A stretch of DNA of 58,889 nt, from NCBI RefSeq assembly GCF_000949295.1, contig NZ_JXYS01000034.1, forward strand, positions 114-59,002, written 5' to 3'. A program made the translations under genes and the position numbers. The stretch comes from Acidithrix ferrooxidans. GTDB lineage: Bacteria > Actinomycetota > Acidimicrobiia > Acidimicrobiales > Acidimicrobiaceae. The notes beneath the pieces are model-generated. The model was given only the letters and a program-made list of their open reading frames with translations. It did not search any database and was not told the origin of the DNA. Within the stretch, counting starts at the first letter, position 1. Each line of letters starts with the position of its first letter. Below are positions 4,795 to 58,889 of this stretch, one piece after another.

Positions 4795-5349
4795 TACCTA
4801 ACAAAAAGGAAGAACTTAGAATAGCAATCCAATGAGCTAAAATCTCAAGTAGATCATAGACCTGCGCTGATGAAAATGAAATCCGATATCTTGGCTACTT
4901 CACAACCGTGGTAATCTTGATCCTATCAACGAGATAGTCAACCATCCCAGCTTGTTACTTAGCATGGTCGGTTAGAAGCGAAACATTTAGGCGCAGCCTG
5001 ATAGCTATTAAGCGTTTGATCAGTTCGACAAAAAATTAAATTAGGACTAGGAAAGGAAGTTAATATAATGGTCAAGTTCGTGAAAATGACATCGATTTCA
5101 ACGATCGCTGGTATTGCGCCAATAAGTCACGTGCGTAAGTAACTAAATTGATGTTGAACAAAGTCGATAATTTTCAACTCAGATTACGCCCATAGGCAAT
5201 GGTTACGTGCTGCATATTTCCTCCTTAAACGAAACTCAAGAAAATGGTTAAGATTTCAATAAAGTGTTTGAAGCGAGTCAACAACGGTAGTGATACAAAG
5301 AGTAAAATGTATTCCAAGTACCATTGCAAATTAGAGGTAAGGTAATTCA
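4795..5349. other. 555-base gap between the SNF2 gene and the 241-aa gene
   Basis: No gene of normal size is visible. The only item of note is a 24-codon frame at 5068-5142 with a good ribosome binding site, listed separately. The rest is AT-rich with scattered stops in all frames. It may hold the promoter of the downstream gene, but I cannot point to a convincing -35/-10 pair. Confidence 0.5.
5068..5142 (+). CDS. Possible 24-aa peptide with strong ribosome binding site
   Basis: An ATG at 5068 opens a 24-codon frame preceded by AAAGGAAG at ideal spacing. The peptide is mildly hydrophobic and resembles nothing I know. It could be a leader peptide, the 5' stub of a decayed gene, or chance. It lies between the SNF2 helicase gene and the 241-aa gene. 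Confidence 0.2.
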   Translation: MVKFVKMTSISTIAGIAPISHVRK

Positions 5350-49416: not shown

Positions 49417-50046
49417 TGGCGATAGAGCAGACCAGATCCTGTGGCTGGCCCTGCCCCGTTGACGCTAACCTTTCGTGAGACTACTGAAGCAGAACCACCG
49501 AGTTGACGGGAAACGGTACTTAATAAGTCGTCACAACCGAATCCCCGGAGGAGTTCATCGCATTGTGAGATAGTGAATGAATCTCTTCGTGTAGCTCAGG
49601 TAATCGCGACCGGACCATCTCGAGTCTGATCACGCAGCATGATCTCGGTGGCCATGCGGCAACAGCCAACCTGTTTGGCAAATGTTCGCAGACTCTACCT
49701 CGGCTCCGAAGACGCTAGCCAGGGGCGCGCTGTTCGATGGTGAACCTCCGGCAATGGGAACACTTCCGATAATTGAATCGTGCACCATTGAATTCTTCTC
49801 GAGCGTTGCAATCACTTGCTGATGCAAAGCTCCTCGCACCGACTGGGATTGCGTAGCCAGTGACCACTCGAGAAGCCTCGTCCAGGTTTCTTGTGTTCTG
49901 ACACCCAGTGGGAGCCACCGGGCAACGCAATCATCGCTGCGCCACGGGCTACATTCGGACATTTTGCTGCGTCGAGTTTTGCAATGGTCTGTATCTCACT
50001 GAGTTTGGGGTTCATCGAGACGACTTTTTGGTGTATCAGAGCCATT
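49417..50046. other. Debris between the IstB and PIN remnants
   Basis: About 630 bases of relatively GC-rich sequence. Minus-strand frames at 49630-49962 and 49812-50045 overlap one another in different phases and resemble no family; at most they are the shattered C-terminal part of the broken PIN gene. Confidence 0.4.
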
Positions 50047-50448
50047 TCAAACGGGAACTCCTACATAATTCGGGTCAACCTCCTCGGAGGAAAACCCGTC
50101 CTTATGGTTAGTGCAGATGATATCCACCTCGGCCGCCAACGCCGCAGCAAGGACGTGCTCGCCATCGGGATCCTTTAATTCGGGATCGTCGAAGACGTAA
50201 TACTCTGATTCCACGGCGACCATCGACTCAAGGAAGTGCTTCTCCAATAGCCAACGCAGCCGCGTTGCGTCCTTAGATGCGTTCGGGTTCTTGTCTGCGT
50301 ACTTGCGGGCCAGTTTGGTCTCCAATTCGACCATGATGCTGTCAGACCAGCGAAATTCGATTAGACCAAACTGATGGGTTTAGATCAAGTAGTCGCGGAC
50401 GGTCCTGCCAAACAGAACGTTGGTGTCCGTCAGGACAACGCGGAACAT
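50047..50448 (-). pseudogene. PIN-domain gene with an early nonsense codon
   Basis: An ATG at 50448 opens MFRVVLTDTNVLFGRTVRDYLI, the PIN start with the first Asp, and then hits TAA at codon 23 (50380-50382). The same frame continues FRWSDSIMVELETKLARKYADKNPNAS and DPDGEHVLAAALAAEVDIICTNHKDGF (second acidic cluster and final motif) to 50047. Only one mutation separates it from an intact reading frame. An internal ATG at 50334 would give a 95-aa product lacking the first catalytic Asp. Confidence 0.8.
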
Positions 50449-50714
50449 TAGTCGTCGAATCCAGCCTGTCAACGGCCATTTGAAAACATACTTATCGAGT
50501 TTCGTAAGTTTCGCCTCCACCGAGACCAGATTGGAGCTAATCCTTAGTAGAACAGATATTCTACTAAGGTGGCATGGTGGATATCTCAGGCTTTATGGTA
50601 CGCTTCGCTTCAAAGTAAGCATGTGAAGATCATTTGATCAAATTGCTATTGCTATGAGGGATTAAGATGCTCAAAGTGTAACTTCGATCAATTTACTTTA
50701 GTAAGGCCAAATCA
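50449..50714. other. Short gap before IS1595 copy 3
   Basis: About 265 bases, AT-rich, with no gene seen. Confidence 0.4.
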
Positions 50715-51616
50715 TTTCAAGAAATGCAGCATCTCGAGCTCCACTTTTTCAATGTAAATCTTGTCACCGCCAAACTAGCGTTACCTCCGGAACCATCTTC
50801 CATCGAAGCCATATCTCTTTTTCCTAGTGGTTTTCTGCTATCTATCTATTGTCCAACGACAAGCGTGGTCTTTCAGCTACTACCCCCTAGCCATTAGAGC
50901 CCTTGCTAAATTCGTTCAAGTATCTTATTCGACTGGATGGTTGATGTTAAATAAGCTACCTAAGGCAATGGCTGAGCGTAATGGCTGAGCGCAATGGCTG
51001 AGCGCAATGGCTGAGCGTACCGGCTGACCGAGATGGTTTATACAAACTTGGAGAAAACGCCTGAGTAGATGAGTTCTTTTTAGGTGGTGAGAGCCATGGT
51101 GAAGACTAAAGAGGAAAAGCAACGACCCAAACCAATCTCCTAATTTGAATATCGATTAGCAATGGTGCTCCTACTCATTGCTTCATGGAAGTAATCAAAG
51201 ATACCACTGCTAAATCACCCAAAGATGTTTTTGTGAGACGTTTAGATTCTAATACCAAGCTGATAAGTGATGGTAACCCAAGTTACGGGGTATGTGCTGA
51301 AAGACCTTGGACTAGCGCATTTTAGTCACTTTATCCAAAGACGAACAATCACATGTAACATTCAAATGGCTCAAGATCCTCAATTGTAAACTCCAAGAAA
51401 TTTATCGACAGAACCTACCACGGACTCACCAAGAACATAAGCAACTTATGCCTCGAGGAATTCGCATACCGATTCAACGCAAGGCACTTTGAAATGTCCT
51501 TGGTAGAGCGACTTCTCAATACATGTGTGTTTGCGTCTCCACATCCGCTACTCCGCGAATCTGATTCCAAAATGGCTCTTGCTTACGAAACTTGATAAGT
51601 ATGATTCAAAATGACA
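50715..51616 (+). mobile_element. IS1595 copy 3, degenerate
   Basis: This segment aligns along its length with the element at the left edge, from the GTIF zinc-ribbon region to beyond the transposase stop. Several indels and stops destroy the frame. A 13-base tandem expansion interrupts it at 50968-51032. Orientation is the same as copy 1. The right end continues to about AATGAC at 51616, a tip also visible in copy 2. Confidence 0.9.
50968..51032 (+). repeat. 13-base tandem repeat inside IS1595 copy 3
   Basis: Four units of ATGGCTGAGCG plus YA and one diverged unit (CCGGCTGACCGAG) stand in a row. The corresponding place in copy 1 (about 238-250) has a single unit, so the array arose by local slippage or duplication after the element decayed. 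Confidence 0.85.
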
Positions 51617-51650
51617 ATCTGCCTTGACAACTTTGCTCCGACAAGATAGA

Positions 51651-51881
51651 TTGACAATCGTGACGCATCCTGACCTAGCGGAAAGCGCGGGAAGTGACGA
51701 TCCTGCAGTTGGGCTTCGAGCCGTTGCTTCCCTTCGACGGCTAGCCGAACAGTTGGAGTACTTGCACGTTGACAGAGCCCGCGACCTTGGTTGGTCGTGG
51801 TCCCAGATCGCCTCAGAGCTCGGTGTATCCAAGCAGGCTGTAAACCTAAAGCATGGATTCCGTGCTGACCCAAGCACTTAG
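51651..51881 (+). CDS. Small helix-turn-helix protein paired with a Clp N-domain gene
   Basis: From TTG at 51651 the product reads LTIVTHPDLAESAGSDDPAVGLRAVASLRRLAEQLEYLHVDRARDLGWSW, then SQIASELGVSKQAVNLKH, an HTH at about residues 48-68. Such 75-80-aa HTH proteins are commonly encoded directly before a stand-alone Clp N-domain gene in actinobacteria. An in-frame TTG at 51624 is possible. Its 5' end lies only about 35 bases from the IS1595 remnant, so its native promoter may be altered. The DNA is clearly more GC-rich than the surroundings. Confidence 0.75.
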   Translation: MTIVTHPDLAESAGSDDPAVGLRAVASLRRLAEQLEYLHVDRARDLGWSWSQIASELGVSKQAVNLKHGFRADPST

Positions 51882-51897
51882 AAAAGGAGCTGAGCAA

Positions 51898-52455
51898 ATG
51901 TCGATATTCGCGGAGTCATCCAAAGCGGTCTTTTTCCAAGCACAGGATCTCGCCATAGAGCTGGGCTCTCGCTACTTGAGTGTGGGCCATCTTCTTTACG
52001 GCTGCGCCGAAGTCCGGGATGAGACTGCGGGTGGGCCCCTACGAGAGTGCGGTATCACGGCAGTGGCTATTCGACGAATTCTCCCACGTACGGCTGAACA
52101 GCCAGCAGAGCAGGCCGATCCTGAAGTGCTGAGCTCTATCGGGATCGACTACGGGGGCGTCCGAGCAGCGGGCGATGGAACCTTTGGGGCGGGCGCACTC
52201 GAAAGCGCCCCTGATCGGCGCGTATCGATCACTCGGACCTGCCCGCCAACCTTTACTCCCAACGCAAAGCGGACACTAGAGCTATCGCTTCGAACTGCTC
52301 AGGAACTGCACCACCATCACATCCTCCCTGGCCATTTGTTGCTAGGACTGCTTCGCCTCGACGATGAGCTCGTGTCGAACATCATCGAGCAGTCTTGCAC
52401 GACCGTGGCTGCCCTCTCGGCCGCGGTGCTAACCAGCCTTGCAGTCGTTGTTTAG
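51898..52455 (+). CDS. Stand-alone Clp N-terminal-domain protein
   Basis: The 185-aa product carries two Clp_N repeats: FAESSKAVFFQAQDLAIELGSRYLSVGHLLYG near the start and FTPNAKRTLELSLRTAQELHHHHILPGHLLLGLLR near 115-150. There is no AAA+ ATPase module. AAAGGAG precedes the ATG at 51898. Such proteins may act as adaptors or decoys for ClpC/ClpP. The gene directly follows and overlaps the region of the HTH gene, which probably regulates it. Confidence 0.85.
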   Translation: MSIFAESSKAVFFQAQDLAIELGSRYLSVGHLLYGCAEVRDETAGGPLRECGITAVAIRRILPRTAEQPAEQADPEVLSSIGIDYGGVRAAGDGTFGAGALESAPDRRVSITRTCPPTFTPNAKRTLELSLRTAQELHHHHILPGHLLLGLLRLDDELVSNIIEQSCTTVAALSAAVLTSLAVVV

Positions 52456-53121
52456 TCAACGCAATGTCAATTGCGAAGGTTTTTGGGATACTTACCTGAC
52501 TCTTCGTTGAGGTCGTGTAGTAGGAGTCCGAACAGGTCTCTGGTGGTTCGAAGTTCGAATAAGGACAACGCACCTCCACCAAGTTCTAGTATCGTCCCTG
52601 AAGGTTCTCCCATTAACTGCTAAAACAACAATTGAATAGGTCTGACTACACCATCCTAAGCATCCACTCAATGATGATTGTAACGAGCGAATTGCCCGAC
52701 TTATGGAGAGACCTAGCTGTTAGATACCCTAGGTGTCTGGATGGTTGGCATCTGCTCAAGTGGATTATGAATAACTCGACAGGACGAGAACTTGAGGAAT
52801 GTTGATAATTTATCCACAGGATCGAAAAGAATCCCAATTTGCAATATAAACAAAGCAAATCATGATCGATCCTTTCCTCAAAATTGCATCAATCGATTGA
52901 GAGATTAGGGAAGTTTTTTGTGAACTCGTCTCCTTAGAACCGTCAAACAAATTGCCACGTTGTGTCATTATTCGGCGACTCAATTTCGCTGGCACTACTA
53001 TAACGAGCGTAGCAATTCGCTAAGTGCTACGATTAGAAGTAGCTTGCCCCGCTCAAAAGTTGGCGAAGGGCAGCTCCGAATTCAGTCTTTCAATTTCACT
53101 ATTACTTACAGGGAGCCCTTC
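52456..53121. other. Gap with a possible 44-aa peptide and a DnaA-box-like sequence
   Basis: A frame at 52671-52805 reads TSELPDLWRDLAVRYP and ends RELEEC; it looks protein-like but lacks a good ribosome binding site. One TTATCCACA (DnaA box) occurs at 52809-52817 without neighbours. The promoter of the aldehyde dehydrogenase should lie near the right end. Confidence 0.45.
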
Positions 53122-54540
53122 ATGATAGTTAGAGATTCTATATACGTAGATGGATCGTGGATTAAGTCCAATGCAACCTCGACTATTGACGTCATCAATT
53201 CCACCACCGAAGAGGTTATGGCAACGGTCCCTGCCGGCACTGCTGCCGACGTAGAAAAGGCGGTAGATGCAGCAAAGAGGGCATTCAAGACTTGGTCAAA
53301 GGTATCAGTAGATGAGCGCTCAAAGTATTGCACAAGAATTGCCGAGGGGCTTCAAGCTCGCCTAGACGAAATCTCCACAATCGTTACTCAAGAGGTCGGC
53401 ATGGTAAAAAACCTAAGCTCCCTCATCCAAGTAGGTTTACCTATAAATTCATTCAGCACCGCAGCATCGATAGCATCAAGCTTTGATTTTGAAGAGCGCT
53501 CTGGGAACTCGACCATTGTTCGAGAGCCAATTGGTGTTGTTGGATGTATCACCCCATGGAACTACCCTCTCCATCAGATAGCCGCAAAGGTAGCCTATGC
53601 AATTGCTGCGGGTTGCACAGTTGTCCTAAAGCCGTCAGAGGTCGCACCATTGAACGCATTCCTTCTAGCCGAGATAGTGGACGAAGTTGGTTTACCTGCC
53701 GGAGTCTTCAACCTAGTTTGCGGGGTCGGTCCAATCGTCGGTGAGGCTATAGCTTCACATCCAGACGTCGACATGGTCTCTTTTACAGGATCTACTCGAG
53801 CAGGGAGCCGAATCGCTGAAATTTGCGGATCACGCATCGCAAAGGCTACTCTTGAACTAGGTGGAAAGAGTGCAAATATCATTCTCGAAGATGCTGACCT
53901 TGAACGCGCAGTCGCAGATGGAGTATCAAAGGCATTTCTCAATTCAGGACAGACCTGCTCTGCTTTGACGAGAATGCTCGTTCCGAGAAACAAAATTACG
54001 GAAGTAGAGCAGATCGCAGCGCAAACTGCTGAAAAGATGACTGTTGGCGATCCTTTTGCTAGGAATTCCCGCCTCGGTCCCCTAGTTTCGAAGTCTCAAT
54101 GGGATAGGGTGCAACACTATATCTCAATAGGTATCGACGAGGGCGCGACTCTAGTAACCGGCGGCCTTGGCAAACCCGATGGCCTTGATACTGGATTCTT
54201 TGTCAAACCAACGATCTTTTCAAATGTCTCTTCTGATATGACAATTGCTCAAGAGGAGATATTCGGCCCAGTGCTCGTCATAATACCCTTTGACACAGAA
54301 GAAGAGGCAATTGCAATTGCAAACGACTCTAATTACGGTCTTGCAGGCGGAGTGTGGGCATCGACTCAAGAACGAGCTCTATCAATTGCACGTCAGATAC
54401 GAACTGGACAAGTAGAGATCAACGGAGGGGCGTTCAACCCCAATGCTCCATTTGGAGGATACAAAAAATCAGGAATCGGTAGAGAATTTGGTCGCTTCGG
54501 CTTGGATGAGTTCCTCTTGGTTAAATCAATTCAAGAGTAG
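53122..54540 (+). CDS. NAD(P)-dependent aldehyde dehydrogenase
   Basis: The 472-aa enzyme oxidises an aldehyde to a carboxylate. Visible family motifs are PWNYPL (near 138), [15 protein letters not shown], the catalytic Glu in LELGGKSA (near 244), catalytic Cys in SGQTC (near 279), EEIFGPV (near 376) and the C-terminal [15 protein letters not shown]. The ATG at 53122 follows AGGGAG and matches normal family length; upstream in-frame starts would add an unusual 54-residue extension. Substrate cannot be told from the sequence. No pathway genes are adjacent, so it appears as a solitary metabolic gene within the island. Confidence 0.92.
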
Positions 54541-54649
54541 TGCCAAAAGGAGTGAAGGTCGAGGTGCTTGTCTTGCCTTTAGACCATGGTGGGTTCGGCA
54601 ACTAAATTATTGCGGTATTGAAGTCGTAAGCCAAGATTCGACGCGCTTC

Positions 54650-54844
54650 TCACTCTGGAAGCAACCCTCGAAGAAATGCGCGTACCTTTTTATCTCCATA
54701 GGGTTTTGAACTTACGGCCATTGCTACTGATACAAGAGGTGCTCCAATCGGACGTGCTCCATCTGTATAACGAAGTTGCATTCGCTTTCGCTTTTCGCTA
54801 ATTAGTGCGATACACTCACCATTTCGCCAAATTTCTAAGTCCAT
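54650..54844 (-). pseudogene. HipA N-terminal fragment
   Basis: The 64-codon frame reads DLEIWRNGECIALISEKRKRMQLRYTDGARPIGAPLVSVAMAVSSKPYGDKKVRAFLRGLLPE, compared here only as the N-terminal Couple_hipA domain (LxY-x-G...PLS...FLxGLLPE). The kinase domain is entirely missing: similarity stops at the family LLPE motif near 54650 and the aldehyde dehydrogenase ends at 54540. It lies directly downstream of a broken hipB-like gene. Confidence 0.78.
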
Positions 54845-55083
54845 ACCTCTATGAAACTTCGCTACGGGGTCGAACGATGATCTCTAGGTTCAGAGCATTA
54901 AATGCATCTACCAAATATTTGACTGCATTTGTAGTCGAACCAGTTTCGAGCTCTGCGATGTAGCCCGGATTTTCTTGCAAGCTCTACTTGAGTCACACCT
55001 ACGATGTTGCGAAATTCTCTAATCGCTAGTCCAAATGACTGAGGTACAATGATTATGAATTCACTATCTGTCTCTCTGGGCAT
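54845..55083 (-). pseudogene. HipB-like XRE antitoxin, frameshifted
   Basis: From 55083 the frame reads PQSFGLAIREFRNIVGVTQVELARKSGLHRR, an XRE HTH, and then goes out of phase; the continuation (FVSELETGSTTNAVKYLVDAFNAL-type) is recoverable in another frame down to about 54895. It lies next to its palindromic operator and just before the HipA remnant, so a complete hipBA module once stood here. Confidence 0.72.
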
Positions 55084-55134
55084 AGTGAATTCATAGTCAC
55101 TCTAAAGGCTCATTGTCTGATTATACAGACAATG
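55081..55134 (-). promoter_or_regulatory. HipB operator palindromes
   Basis: CATTGTCTG (55111-55119) and CAGACAATG (55126-55134) form a perfect 9-base inverted repeat with a 6-base spacer. A second palindrome centred on TGAATTCA (about 55085-55096) overlaps the start of the hipB-like gene. They fit autoregulatory sites of a hipBA operon. Confidence 0.6.
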
Positions 55135-55699
55135 ACTGATCTTGTAAAGTTATCTCATTTTACCGACAATATGTCGATCTCCGAACGTTCATCAAGAATC
55201 AACGGGTTGGCTCCTTGAGTACAAACCATCCCGGCTAATACTCTCTTCGAACATGGAGTTATCGCGCAAATCGATTCATCTGCCCATGAGAGTGAAGAGT
55301 CAATTCTGCTACGACAGCAAGCAAATGAGATAAAGTCTAAAAAGGATTTAACTCGAAGTTCTTGGCGGTCTATCAGTTCGATATTTCCAAGAGTGTCAAC
55401 GTTTCCGGTTGCCTTAATAATTCCGCGAACAGTTACCCAAATGGATTTACAAAGCAATAATTTTTAGCATATGGAGATATTAGAATTACTTGAACCGTTG
55501 GTAACGATTTACACCACAAATCAATACAACATCGCACCTTTCTACCTATCGAAGGAACCGATCGTCAAATTCGACGATCGGTTACCATCCATGGGCTAAA
55601 GATCACTTGAAGAATCAAGTAAATCCATCCAGAAGTCAAAGGTCTATGCCTTCGAGAAACCATGGTTTCAAAAAGAAAAGAAGAATCTTATCGCTTTGC
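55135..55699. other. Gap between the hipBA remnant and the BREX-like operon
   Basis: A 100-codon minus-strand frame (55155-55457) has no good ribosome binding site and no family likeness; it is cysteine/serine-rich and probably non-coding. The hairpin at 55556-55583 is listed separately. Confidence 0.45.
55556..55583 (-). terminator. Strong hairpin downstream of the BREX-like operon
   Basis: AACCGATCGTC (55556-55566) and GACGATCGGTT (55573-55583) pair perfectly around a 6-base loop, about 120 bases beyond the last gene of the minus-strand operon. No long T-run follows, so it may stabilise the transcript end rather than terminate by itself. Confidence 0.55.
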
Positions 55700-56980
55700 C
55701 TAAGAGTTATCAACCGACTCGAATAACGGGGACTGAGTCAAATCACCGTCTTCCCCATAGTCAATCTCAACCTTGGTTACGGTAGTCTGCGGTATGAAGG
55801 TAGGGTCAAGACGGATCAAATCCCACTCATTGATCCACGCTCGCACATACTGACGCATTCTATTTGAGCCCAACCTCTCTAGCCCACCCACATGTGGTGG
55901 GTCCCAGTTATAGGCAGCGCCGTGAATTCTTCGAATTGCCTCATAGGTTACGTTCAATTCATTATCATTTGGAGACTGAAGCTCTGATTGACGACTGCCC
56001 AATATCTTCATCCCAGCTATAGCGTCGATTGAAAGCATTGCCTCTTCGAGTCGGTCTTTGGCAGCTAAGCGTTGGGGAATCTTGTTATAGTCACCCTTAC
56101 CGATTAGGACTTCTCCTTCAAAGTCGTCCACACTGGTTAGAACCGAGATAATTGGCGAAGGTGGGTATTTCTTAGAACCCTCCACCCAGCGACGAATCTC
56201 CGCATAGGACTTTGCCCGTTGCATCAGGGAGTAACGTCCGATCAATTCAACTTCGTCGATCAAAAGCACCCATCCAGAAAAACCCGCCGCATGAATCAAG
56301 CGGGATACAAATGCAAATCTATCCAAGGAGAGATCCATTGCCTTGGTGGAACGAAGAGAATAACCTCCCAACCAACCAGCTTCGCGAAGGCGTTTTCTCA
56401 TCTCTGCTATAGAAAAGGGCTCTCCGGCCCAAAACTGAGTAAGCTTCTCGGCAAACTCCTCATCACCCTGAAAGCTCTCAAATAGCCGCAGTGACGCACT
56501 AAGGCGCTGGTCTAGCTTACACTCGGGCTGATGGAGCCAAGAATAGAGCGCGGCATATCGAGGTGAATCAAATTTCAATGCAGCTGCAATCTCATCGATA
56601 GCCGATCCAGATCGTTCTGGTACTTTAGCTGAAGCTATCGCCGCGCGAAACATTGCAGTAGGATTGTGAAGCGGAGTCTCTTTGGAGATGACAATCTTTG
56701 AGACCACAAAACGTTTGGCCAATGCGACTTCGCCTAGATATTCAAGCAGGTGACTCTTTCCTGATCCAAAACCACCCTTGATGACCATGCCAAGGGAAGA
56801 TCGATCGCTGGTAGCATCGGAGGTCTCGGTAAGCAAACCTTCAAATCGATCCACAATCGAACGCTGCGTTGTTCCAAGTGCCTTGACACTCTCGCCATTA
56901 GGAACTCCAGATCGAAGTGCCTCTATCGCTCGCCGGGCGATCTGTCGTACATCTTCTAAGCTCTCTTGATCCACGTTCAA
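55700..56980 (-). CDS. BREX-type ATP-binding protein (DUF2791/BrxD-like)
   Basis: The 426-aa protein has Walker A VIKGGFGSGKSHLLEYLGEVAL near residues 67-80 and Walker B GWVLLIDEVELIGRYSLMQRAKSYAEIRRW near 237-265, the pattern of DUF2791 ATPases such as BrxD. A C-terminal winged-helix-like region (MRQYVRAWINEWDL) follows. Its TTG start overlaps the stop of the preceding gene (TTGA). In BREX and related loci this ATPase works with helicases, a methyltransferase and PglZ; none of those is visible downstream. It is the last gene of a three-gene operon. Confidence 0.82.
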   Translation of the reverse strand: MNVDQESLEDVRQIARRAIEALRSGVPNGESVKALGTTQRSIVDRFEGLLTETSDATSDRSSLGMVIKGGFGSGKSHLLEYLGEVALAKRFVVSKIVISKETPLHNPTAMFRAAIASAKVPERSGSAIDEIAAALKFDSPRYAALYSWLHQPECKLDQRLSASLRLFESFQGDEEFAEKLTQFWAGEPFSIAEMRKRLREAGWLGGYSLRSTKAMDLSLDRFAFVSRLIHAAGFSGWVLLIDEVELIGRYSLMQRAKSYAEIRRWVEGSKKYPPSPIISVLTSVDDFEGEVLIGKGDYNKIPQRLAAKDRLEEAMLSIDAIAGMKILGSRQSELQSPNDNELNVTYEAIRRIHGAAYNWDPPHVGGLERLGSNRMRQYVRAWINEWDLIRLDPTFIPQTTVTKVEIDYGEDGDLTQSPLFESVDNS

Positions 56981-57996
56981 TGCGACACCTCCTTCAAAGT
57001 TGCCAAGTTACCATCTAAGAGATCTTGGGAGAGCTCCTCCGCGGTTGAAGAGGAGAGAGAAATAAGAGAAGAGTATGGGTTGTCACGGTTTTTATCTCTC
57101 ACCTCGTCATAAATCCGCAGCTTAAGGGCTTGATAGGCTGACAGGCCTCGCGAGTCGTCACTCAAAAACTCTGGTGAGATAACGACGATCGTGGCAAAAT
57201 TAGAAAATTCGTCCGCATTGTCGATGAGTTGGCGTAATGATTCATAGGCATCCATTACTGCATTGCGACTATAAATTATTCCGGGCGACTCAATGTCTGG
57301 TTCTTTTCTCAATTTCTGAAATTGACGGATATCGAGCGTCAATAGAAATCCCTCATAGCCATTCGCCACTATCCATCGAGAGAGAGAAAAGAGCATTGCC
57401 CTCGCATTCGAACGAGAGATCTTACGAAAGATTAGAGCACTCTTCAATAGAGAGATCTGCCTTAGGGATCCCTCCAGCCAAGCAATTATTGAATCACGCT
57501 CTAGTTCTGTAACCTGTCCGCTCTTGAGTTCGTACTGGCAAAGTCGCATCATTGCTATGCGAAACTCTCCAACCATAGAGTAATCTTTGAAGATCCTTTG
57601 CTGAAGAACGATATTGATATCGCGTTTAACTTCACGTTCATCAGCCCCATAAGAAAAAGCCAACATCGCTAGAGAAAGATCCTGATCGTCGTTGGGAACT
57701 GGATATCCTGCACTATGGGCTGCAATTCTGGTAAAGCTATTTGCTAGCTTTTGCCAATCGATCTGCCTTGCGATACCAAAAAAAATCTGCTCGATCATCT
57801 GCACCTTGGAGGTCGCTGAATCAATTCGTGCCACTAAATGTCCACTCGACTGTGCTTGCGAACAGATAGCATCAACAAAGTTAGCCTCTTCACCGGAAGG
57901 TGGTAAGACAAACTTTGTCGTAGTACCTCCCCTGGGTATATAGCTCGTTAGATATTCTTGAGAGAAAAACTCGAGATACTTATCGCTATCTATCAT
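56977..57996 (-). CDS. Second BREX-associated ATPase-like protein
   Basis: The 339-aa product begins FSQEYLTSYIPRGGTTTKFVLPPSG, resembling the N-terminus of BREX-system ATP-binding proteins, with a loop GEEANFVDAICSQAQ where a P-loop would be expected but no canonical GxxxxGK[ST]. Later it has a Walker-B-like GFLLTLDIRQF near 213 and a sensor-like ATIVVISPEFL near 268. It may be a degenerate NTPase that pairs with the DUF2791 protein encoded next. The ATG at 57996 overlaps the preceding stop (ATGA) and its end overlaps the following start, so all three proteins are coupled. Confidence 0.68.
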   Translation of the reverse strand: MIDSDKYLEFFSQEYLTSYIPRGGTTTKFVLPPSGEEANFVDAICSQAQSSGHLVARIDSATSKVQMIEQIFFGIARQIDWQKLANSFTRIAAHSAGYPVPNDDQDLSLAMLAFSYGADEREVKRDINIVLQQRIFKDYSMVGEFRIAMMRLCQYELKSGQVTELERDSIIAWLEGSLRQISLLKSALIFRKISRSNARAMLFSLSRWIVANGYEGFLLTLDIRQFQKLRKEPDIESPGIIYSRNAVMDAYESLRQLIDNADEFSNFATIVVISPEFLSDDSRGLSAYQALKLRIYDEVRDKNRDNPYSSLISLSSSTAEELSQDLLDGNLATLKEVSH

Positions 57997-58784
57997 TGCG
58001 TCACCTCGAAGGAGATTCCTGCGTATAGCTTGATCTGACCACCTTTAGCAACTGTCTCCATCGTGCCGGAACTTCGAGTCATTGCACTTGCTGGCAACTT
58101 CAAGACACGGCCACCTCTGGTGGTATCAATTCCACTTTGATCGAGCAGATAGATATCTCGCACAAACTCCGATTTCGTGTAACTCTTAGCAGCTGGAAGA
58201 ATCGTCAAAACTCTATAGAGATCCACAAGTTTGACAACTGTACCTGCTGGGAGCTCCTTTTCGGCAACTACTAGGTCATAAGCAGTTGCGATCATCTCAA
58301 TAAATGTTTCTGGCTTTAATCCAAATTGGCGCTTTGAGAGGCCTTTCAATTGAGCAACCAAAAAACTAGGGCGAATCCCCCGCTGTTTCTTCTTTTCAAT
58401 GATCACTGCGGCGTCTGAGGGAGAAAGCGAGATTATTGTCGGATAGGAGAGGAATTTTCCATCGGATTCAATAATCCTTATATCTTCCTCCTCGCAAAGA
58501 GAAAATAGTTCCTCCTTGTAAGAGCCCGACTCCATTATCTTTGAGACATCTACTTCAGCAAGGGAACTAAGTTCATCCACCACCGAGCCAATCCCCTCAA
58601 CCAATGTTTTCAATTCAGTCACAGCAAGGATGTAATCTCGAACTGAGCCAGTTTGAGAGGCCTTCTTAGCCTTTTTCCCCCGAGCGCTGATGGAATTTAC
58701 AATACGAACCAACTCATCAACCGTTGCTTCGGCCATCTCAAAGTGTCGCTCTAGAGAACTATCCTGCTTCAAATTGGGATTCAA
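57993..58784 (-). CDS. Unrecognised 263-aa protein, first gene of the BREX-like operon
   Basis: I recognise no named domain. The first ~80 residues form charged helices (EMAEATVDELVRIVNSISARGKKAKKASQ), likely a coiled coil or oligomerisation region. The middle (about 100-200) alternates helices and strands with a possible winged-helix element (LSKRQFGLKPETFIEMIATAYDLV). The last 60 residues are strand-rich. The start is TTG at 58784. Neighbourhood suggests a structural or DNA-binding partner of the two ATPases. The operon promoter should lie within 58785-58889. Confidence 0.6.
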   Translation of the reverse strand: MNPNLKQDSSLERHFEMAEATVDELVRIVNSISARGKKAKKASQTGSVRDYILAVTELKTLVEGIGSVVDELSSLAEVDVSKIMESGSYKEELFSLCEEEDIRIIESDGKFLSYPTIISLSPSDAAVIIEKKKQRGIRPSFLVAQLKGLSKRQFGLKPETFIEMIATAYDLVVAEKELPAGTVVKLVDLYRVLTILPAAKSYTKSEFVRDIYLLDQSGIDTTRGGRVLKLPASAMTRSSGTMETVAKGGQIKLYAGISFEVTQ

Positions 58785-58889
58785 ACAATCATCCTTTCGA
58801 TCACATATGAAAGCGGCTACACATCTAAAAACACGAAAAGTGCAAATGCAAGTTAGTACTACTTTAATGTATCATCCCAGCTAGTCGCC

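Follow-up and report, generated by a model that had tools for sequence, protein, structure and literature searches.

The 58,889-nucleotide stretch of Acidithrix ferrooxidans DNA analyzed here (the window) carries near its right end a minus-strand operon of three genes, A, B, and C, two of which encode ATPase-like proteins of the bacteriophage exclusion (BREX) type. The locus raises the question of whether such an operon is a separate minimal ATPase module or the remains of a larger system that was truncated by a rearrangement on its hipBA side, both of which were proposed in a first-pass annotation of the sequence. The reading we prefer, with a probability of roughly 0.55, is that these three genes form the invariant core of a system, apparently unnamed and probably directed against invaders, that is built around BrxD-type ATPases, and that Acidithrix has lost the helicase gene that accompanied the core in cis.

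Gene A (57993–58784, minus strand) encodes 263 amino acids from a TTG start, gene B (56977–57996, minus strand) encodes 339 amino acids from an ATG start, and gene C (55700–56980, minus strand) encodes 426 amino acids from a TTG start. In the list of open reading frames (ORFs) for the window, A/B and B/C each overlap by 4 bases, consistent with the annotated layout of three slightly overlapping genes ending at 55700. The Pfam family PF10923 (BrxC/D), which we take to be the former DUF2791, matches C at 78.6 bits and B at 54.0 bits (Pfam cut-off 22.2), and the kinship of B and C rests on this common match. C has the Walker A sequence GGFGSGKS and the Walker B sequence VLLIDE. Across relatives, the P-loop pattern GxxxxGK[ST] is found in 65 of 71 C rows compared with 0 of 74 B rows (at least 250 amino acids, the window's B included), as expected from the annotation of a BREX-like ATPase next to a related protein without a P-loop; B is therefore presumed to be an inactive ATPase. 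The six C rows that lack the pattern read AGFG[DE]GKS, with the usual first-position G replaced, and belong to one clade of six C proteins (L097, L104, L108, L110, L112, and L129). A Walker-B-like pattern is present in 70 of 71 C rows, but 9 of the 74 B rows have it too. A sequence search of solved structures with C returned nothing credible.

Searches of Pfam, PADLOC, and NCBIfam (E ≤ 1) and of PHROGs (E ≤ 0.01) indeed gave no match to the A protein, which the annotation had left without a family. The AlphaFold model of whole A (predicted local distance difference test [pLDDT] score 92.6) begins with a coiled-coil hairpin at approximately residues 1–78, followed by alpha/beta and winged-helix-like parts. 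Because coiled-coil rows filled the fold search of the full-length protein, residues 79–263 were also modeled alone (pLDDT 91.1). In the predicted model, the C-terminal end of A is a winged-helix-like domain. The first part of the residue 79–263 model gave frataxin or SH2 rows in structural comparison, a list from which a family's absence does not exclude it, and searching solved structures by sequence returned only coiled coils for A.

Relatives in the family show what usually stands next to this operon. Among 98 genomes, C was found in 14 (A. ferrooxidans included; one match is weak) and A in 13, and the family operon order is A-B-C-D, where D is a superfamily 2 (SF2) helicase with ResIII, DEAD, and Helicase_C matches. 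The four D proteins scanned are closest to PbeA (~198–215 bits), and D is a PbeA/XPB-like helicase. In the 13 genomes picked for having C, a D orthologue is present in 11; one of these is cut by a contig end (G030), one lies in two pieces on two contigs (G037), and one has an in-frame stop (G079). The two genomes without D are that of A. ferrooxidans itself (G000; 4,019,867 bases in 183 contigs) and G008, from the same genus, in which the best D matches score 94 bits (contig 96) and 52 bits, respectively. G009, also of this genus, has D. Incomplete loci occur as well: G039 has the end of C plus D, with A not found, and G001 and G006 have a piece of A at a contig end, with no C found. A search with D gave no match in positions 50001–58889 of the window, and tblastn detected no D remnants beside the operon copies or in the 18 kb of G008. 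Over 3128 columns, the A-B-C genes of G008 are 78% identical in DNA sequence to those of the window; C ends at the same position in both, after which the DNA is unrelated.

The wider distribution was surveyed by scanning named genomes with an alignment of A, which yielded 106 relatives; 80 were kept, from several bacterial phyla, and A is present in all of them by construction. Nine of the 80 lacked C and were excluded. All 71 remaining loci carry A, B, and C in that order and on a single strand, whereas the genes 3' of C differ: D follows in 22 loci, E and/or F in 18, and neither by the rule used in 31, 6 of which have less than 1.5 kb of DNA remaining after C. Class rules vary between tallies, so that L116 counts as having no partner in one and an SNF2-like ORF in another, and the TerB gene of L136 is counted in one only. 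E is a protein of 185–206 amino acids in 16 loci, with no Pfam family in the two tested. F is an SNF2 helicase of the ZorD/DpdE-like type, with an Mrr nuclease domain in L117, the one long F tested, and none in the two shorter F proteins tested (L145 and L146). The partner helicase thus changes by clade, from PbeA-like D to ZorD/DpdE-like F. In 24 loci without D or E-F, the commonest families among 124 neighboring ORFs were PIN (5), BrxC_BrxD (4), TerB_N (4), AAA_16 (4), DEAD (3), and Helicase_C (3), three ORFs of more than 1100 amino acids being excluded from the scan; no constant partner emerges from these counts.

Other neighbors recur in parts of the survey. An upstream gene, G, occurs in 13 loci (L081, L083, L084, L086, L087, L092–L096, L098, L102, and L120), 11 with D and two (L092 and L098) at contig ends. 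Full-length G proteins have 533–732 amino acids, G overlaps A by four bases in several loci, and the G proteins scanned gave only weak helix-turn-helix (HTH)-like Pfam matches. Six actinobacterial loci adjoin divergent TerB genes, and four of the six also have SngB- and SngC-like genes; the Shango-like genes at L125 score 198 (SngA), 550 (SngB), and 873 bits (SngC). Two record titles are at odds with the tree described below. L088, titled as a Bifidobacterium breve metagenome-assembled genome (MAG), clusters with acidimicrobial D-type loci and may be misassigned. The other title, "proteobacterium," belongs to the MAG Umea1p3_bin-980, whose D-type loci L099 and L100 are closely related to each other and give a second example of a genome with two operon copies.

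A tree of A+B+C was built from 70 rows by a quick method with SH-aLRT support only, L098 and L106 being excluded for their short C. It contains an E-F clade of 19 loci (17 with E-F and 2 at contig ends), a D clade of 23 (21 with D, plus the window and L085, the G008 contig), and an actinobacterial clade of 28, of which 20 have no partner, 6 lie beside TerB, and 2 have SNF2. The closest row to the window is L085 (support 100); together they group with two D loci (99), and this group sits inside the D clade (100). Because the window is nested among D loci and neither its genome nor G008 has a D orthologue, the helicase gene was evidently lost, most simply once, before G000 and G008 diverged. The stem leading to the pair is long (0.48), but we make no claim of faster evolution after the loss, as relative-rate counts vary with the outgroup.

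The three genes have been maintained since. All frames are open in G000 and G008, and dN/dS between the two genomes by NG86/YN00 is 0.055/0.063 for A, 0.083/0.129 for B, and 0.072/0.088 for C, ratios that are rough because dS is 1.0–1.5, near saturation. By these values, A, B, and C are under purifying selection without a helicase in cis. The proposal of a separate minimal module therefore stands in part: it is favored by the invariant A-B-C order in the survey, by the actinobacterial clade that mostly lacks an adjacent helicase, and by purifying selection here, whereas relatives in the window's own clade do carry D. By the same comparison, D has been lost relative to that clade, but homologues in general do not always have a gene downstream.

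Truncation, in turn, holds for D but not in the form proposed. A rearrangement on the hipBA side is rejected as the cause because D is likewise absent from G008, whose flank differs and whose C gene ends at the same place. Nor was the lost partner part of BREX. PglZ (PF08665) is absent from both G000 and G008 (0 of 2; control positive in 2 of 14 genomes); together with the empty D search, this agrees with the annotated absence of a following BREX phosphatase or helicase, methyltransferases not having been searched. Against the BrxD equivalog NF033438, C scores 69.6 bits and B 34.9 bits, both far below the cut-off of 350, and the BrxC model gives C 14.3 bits (cut-off 400). The PF10923 matches in G000 and G008 are confined to these genes and the contig 115 copy described below, which leaves no large BrxC/PglY ATPase. 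BREX and truncated BREX were rejected on these grounds, the PglX/BrxX methyltransferase lying outside the search.

The end of the window coincides with the end of an assembled contig (contig 34, bases 114–59002, where 59002 is its last base), which breaks off here because the operon is repeated in the genome. The repeated unit (55737–58889, no strand) comprises the operon and its upstream region and stops just short of the C stop codon. Contig 28 begins with 907 bases identical to positions 57983–58889, and contig 15 with 679 bases identical to 58211–58889; immediately past 58889, these two contigs diverge from one another. On contig 115, 55737–56568 is matched with one gap in 833 columns, after which the end of C differs. 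The operon and its upstream region must therefore be present at least twice in the genome. Contig 115 (L008:4961–6466) also has a 95% fragment of gene C at 4961–5195, adjoining short ORFs that, by eye, resemble fragments of recombinase and IS21-type transposase genes. The upstream region (58785–58889, minus strand) is presumed to hold the promoter; its ~100 bases 5' of A are recognisably conserved in an alignment of G000 with G001 and G008, and BLAST gives 80.6% identity to G001 over 310 columns that include the start of A. On the other side, an imperfect palindrome of 28 bases 3' of C (55556–55583; inverted self-match 26/28) could form a hairpin and is a possible terminator. Farther left, 54650–55083 holds a HipA N-terminal remnant (64 amino acids) and a weak HTH-like ORF of 61 amino acids, a broken hipBA pair, and positions 50000–55700 also hold an aldehyde-dehydrogenase-like ORF (by eye only).

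Several observations count against the preferred reading. The predicted link of A to ORC-type proteins is slight: Foldseek with the A model found nothing at E ≤ 0.001, and the last 107 residues resemble the winged-helix parts of ORC1/CDC6 weakly (Z 5.4–6.2, root-mean-square deviation 3.4–3.8, 77–81 residues), with unrelated winged helices also listed, so that such Z values may mean merely a common arrangement. The near-saturated dS belongs here too, and two independent losses of D, in place of one, are possible. The locus at G079:C5:70408–73254 (L041) is a decaying copy: B-C-D is present, A was not detected, C is split over two frames, and D contains an in-frame stop. Finally, both genomes without D have other helicases. 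In G008, an SNF2 helicase of 1111 amino acids (L030:10368–13703) lies 1.9 kb 5' of A in the opposite direction and is ZorD/DpdE-like, with ZorD1 as its best match (425 bits). In G000, contig 96 encodes a PbeA-like helicase of 474 amino acids with 437 bits to PbeA and 27%–29% identity to D. Since either could act in trans, "without helicase" refers here to the cis gene only, and "helicase-free" may be wrong in functional terms.

It is fairly unlikely that the core depends wholly on a helicase encoded at another site in the genome. The contig 96 and G008 proteins would both be candidates, the latter close to the operon, but G000 and G008 would then rely on unrelated helicases. The contig 96 helicase, moreover, lies in what appears by eye to be a Pbe/Dnd-type cluster of its own (L157:2062–8361), beside an SMC-like ORF of 706 amino acids and a cysteine-desulfurase-like ORF, probably a separate phosphorothioation-type defense cluster. 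It was rejected as a D orthologue in trans on account of its strong PbeA match, its low identity to D, and this placement. That the system died with D and A-B-C is now a decaying remnant we regard as unlikely. The missing D itself, the gapped contig 115 copy with its altered C end, and the C fragment on that contig would fit such decay, whereas three open frames in two genomes with low dN/dS (0.055–0.129), and a C whose P-loop and Walker B are intact in both, argue against it.

A housekeeping role in repair or replication restart, in place of defense, is very unlikely. ORC/Cdc6-like ATPases and XPB- or SNF2-type helicases serve in repair as well, and many genes near the operon are metabolic, but the patchy spread in the 98 genomes described above, the likeness of the partner helicases to defense helicases, and the presence of Shango beside six loci all point away from such a role. 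It is also highly improbable that the three genes are themselves a mobile unit. A pair of copies whose sharp ends lie near the operon ends, and the paired copies in another MAG (L099 and L100), would fit such a unit; yet there is no recombinase within the unit, no inverted ends or clear target duplication are visible by eye (a 7-base resemblance is indistinguishable from chance), and most related genomes that hold the operon have a single copy. A is also unmatched in phage, plasmid, and viral-contig collections, and C in viral contigs.

If A-B-C is the core of an anti-invader system, as we prefer, the mechanism can be sketched by analogy with BREX. A, with its predicted coiled coil and winged helix, would contact DNA and act as a scaffold; B would be a non-hydrolyzing partner subunit; and C would hydrolyze ATP as the motor of the assembly. 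Together they could form an assembly resembling the origin recognition complex (ORC) that recognizes foreign or abnormal DNA and then loads or switches on a helicase, either D or, with E, the SNF2 helicase F. After the loss of D, the Acidithrix core might act alone by DNA binding or together with a helicase in trans, and the mostly helicase-less actinobacterial clade presumably works likewise. We give somewhat less than even odds to a stronger version, in which A-B-C is a self-sufficient ORC-like DNA-binding defense core to which unrelated helicases (PbeA-like or SNF2) have been added by lineage as optional effectors; Acidithrix and the sister species would then represent a reversal to the helicase-free state.

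A core with the same ATPase pair and a swapped or missing helicase separates the job of the ATPases from that of the helicase. As one genus shows both states, with D in G009 and without it in Acidithrix and G008, the question is directly testable. The core also defines a candidate defense family, for which a single genome scan gave 106 relatives, the 80 kept spanning several bacterial phyla. We recognized no description of it in the open-license literature searched, which leaves out most subscription papers.

Among known systems, Shango resembles the core in combining a BrxD-like ATPase with a helicase, and Shango genes adjoin A-B-C in some actinobacteria. Identity with Shango was rejected, because A is not TerB (it is unmatched in Pfam and PADLOC at E ≤ 1, and its model has a coiled coil and winged-helix-like part) and the SngB model gives C 32.5 and B 31.9 bits compared with 550.5 for the SngB of L125. 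The phosphorothioation-based defense system PbeABCD is linked through the relatives' helicase D, which is closest to PbeA. However, PbeC is described as an SMC-like (structural maintenance of chromosomes) protein and PbeA as having a phospholipase D (PLD) domain (PMC6459918), and none of the three core proteins matches a Pbe model at E ≤ 1. The ZorD/DpdE-type SNF2 helicases resemble F, the partner in the second clade, but F is paired with A-B-C-E and is not beside the window operon.

The closest parallels lie in BREX. In PMC12839542, BrxD is placed in the ORC-Cdc6 ATPase class, with no added DNA-binding domains and a role given as uncharacterized, and is proposed to load BrxHI; inactive STAND partners in BREX are proposed to be sensors. 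The BrxD-BrxHI dyad of Type-2 BREX thus ties a PF10923 ORC/Cdc6-type ATPase to an SF2 helicase (PMC12839542), much as C is tied to D in relatives. Here, by contrast, there are two PF10923 genes, one without a P-loop, plus A; the helicases are of other families; and the window has none in cis. The BrxA-BrxB-BrxC triad differs in its proteins, as A has no BrxA match at E ≤ 1 (PADLOC) and C has 426 amino acids compared with 1200–1300 for BrxC. Its division of labor (PMC12839542) is nevertheless similar, by analogy only: a DNA-binding protein, an inactive STAND/ORC-type NTPase, and an active ATPase, the parts that A, B, and C would play.

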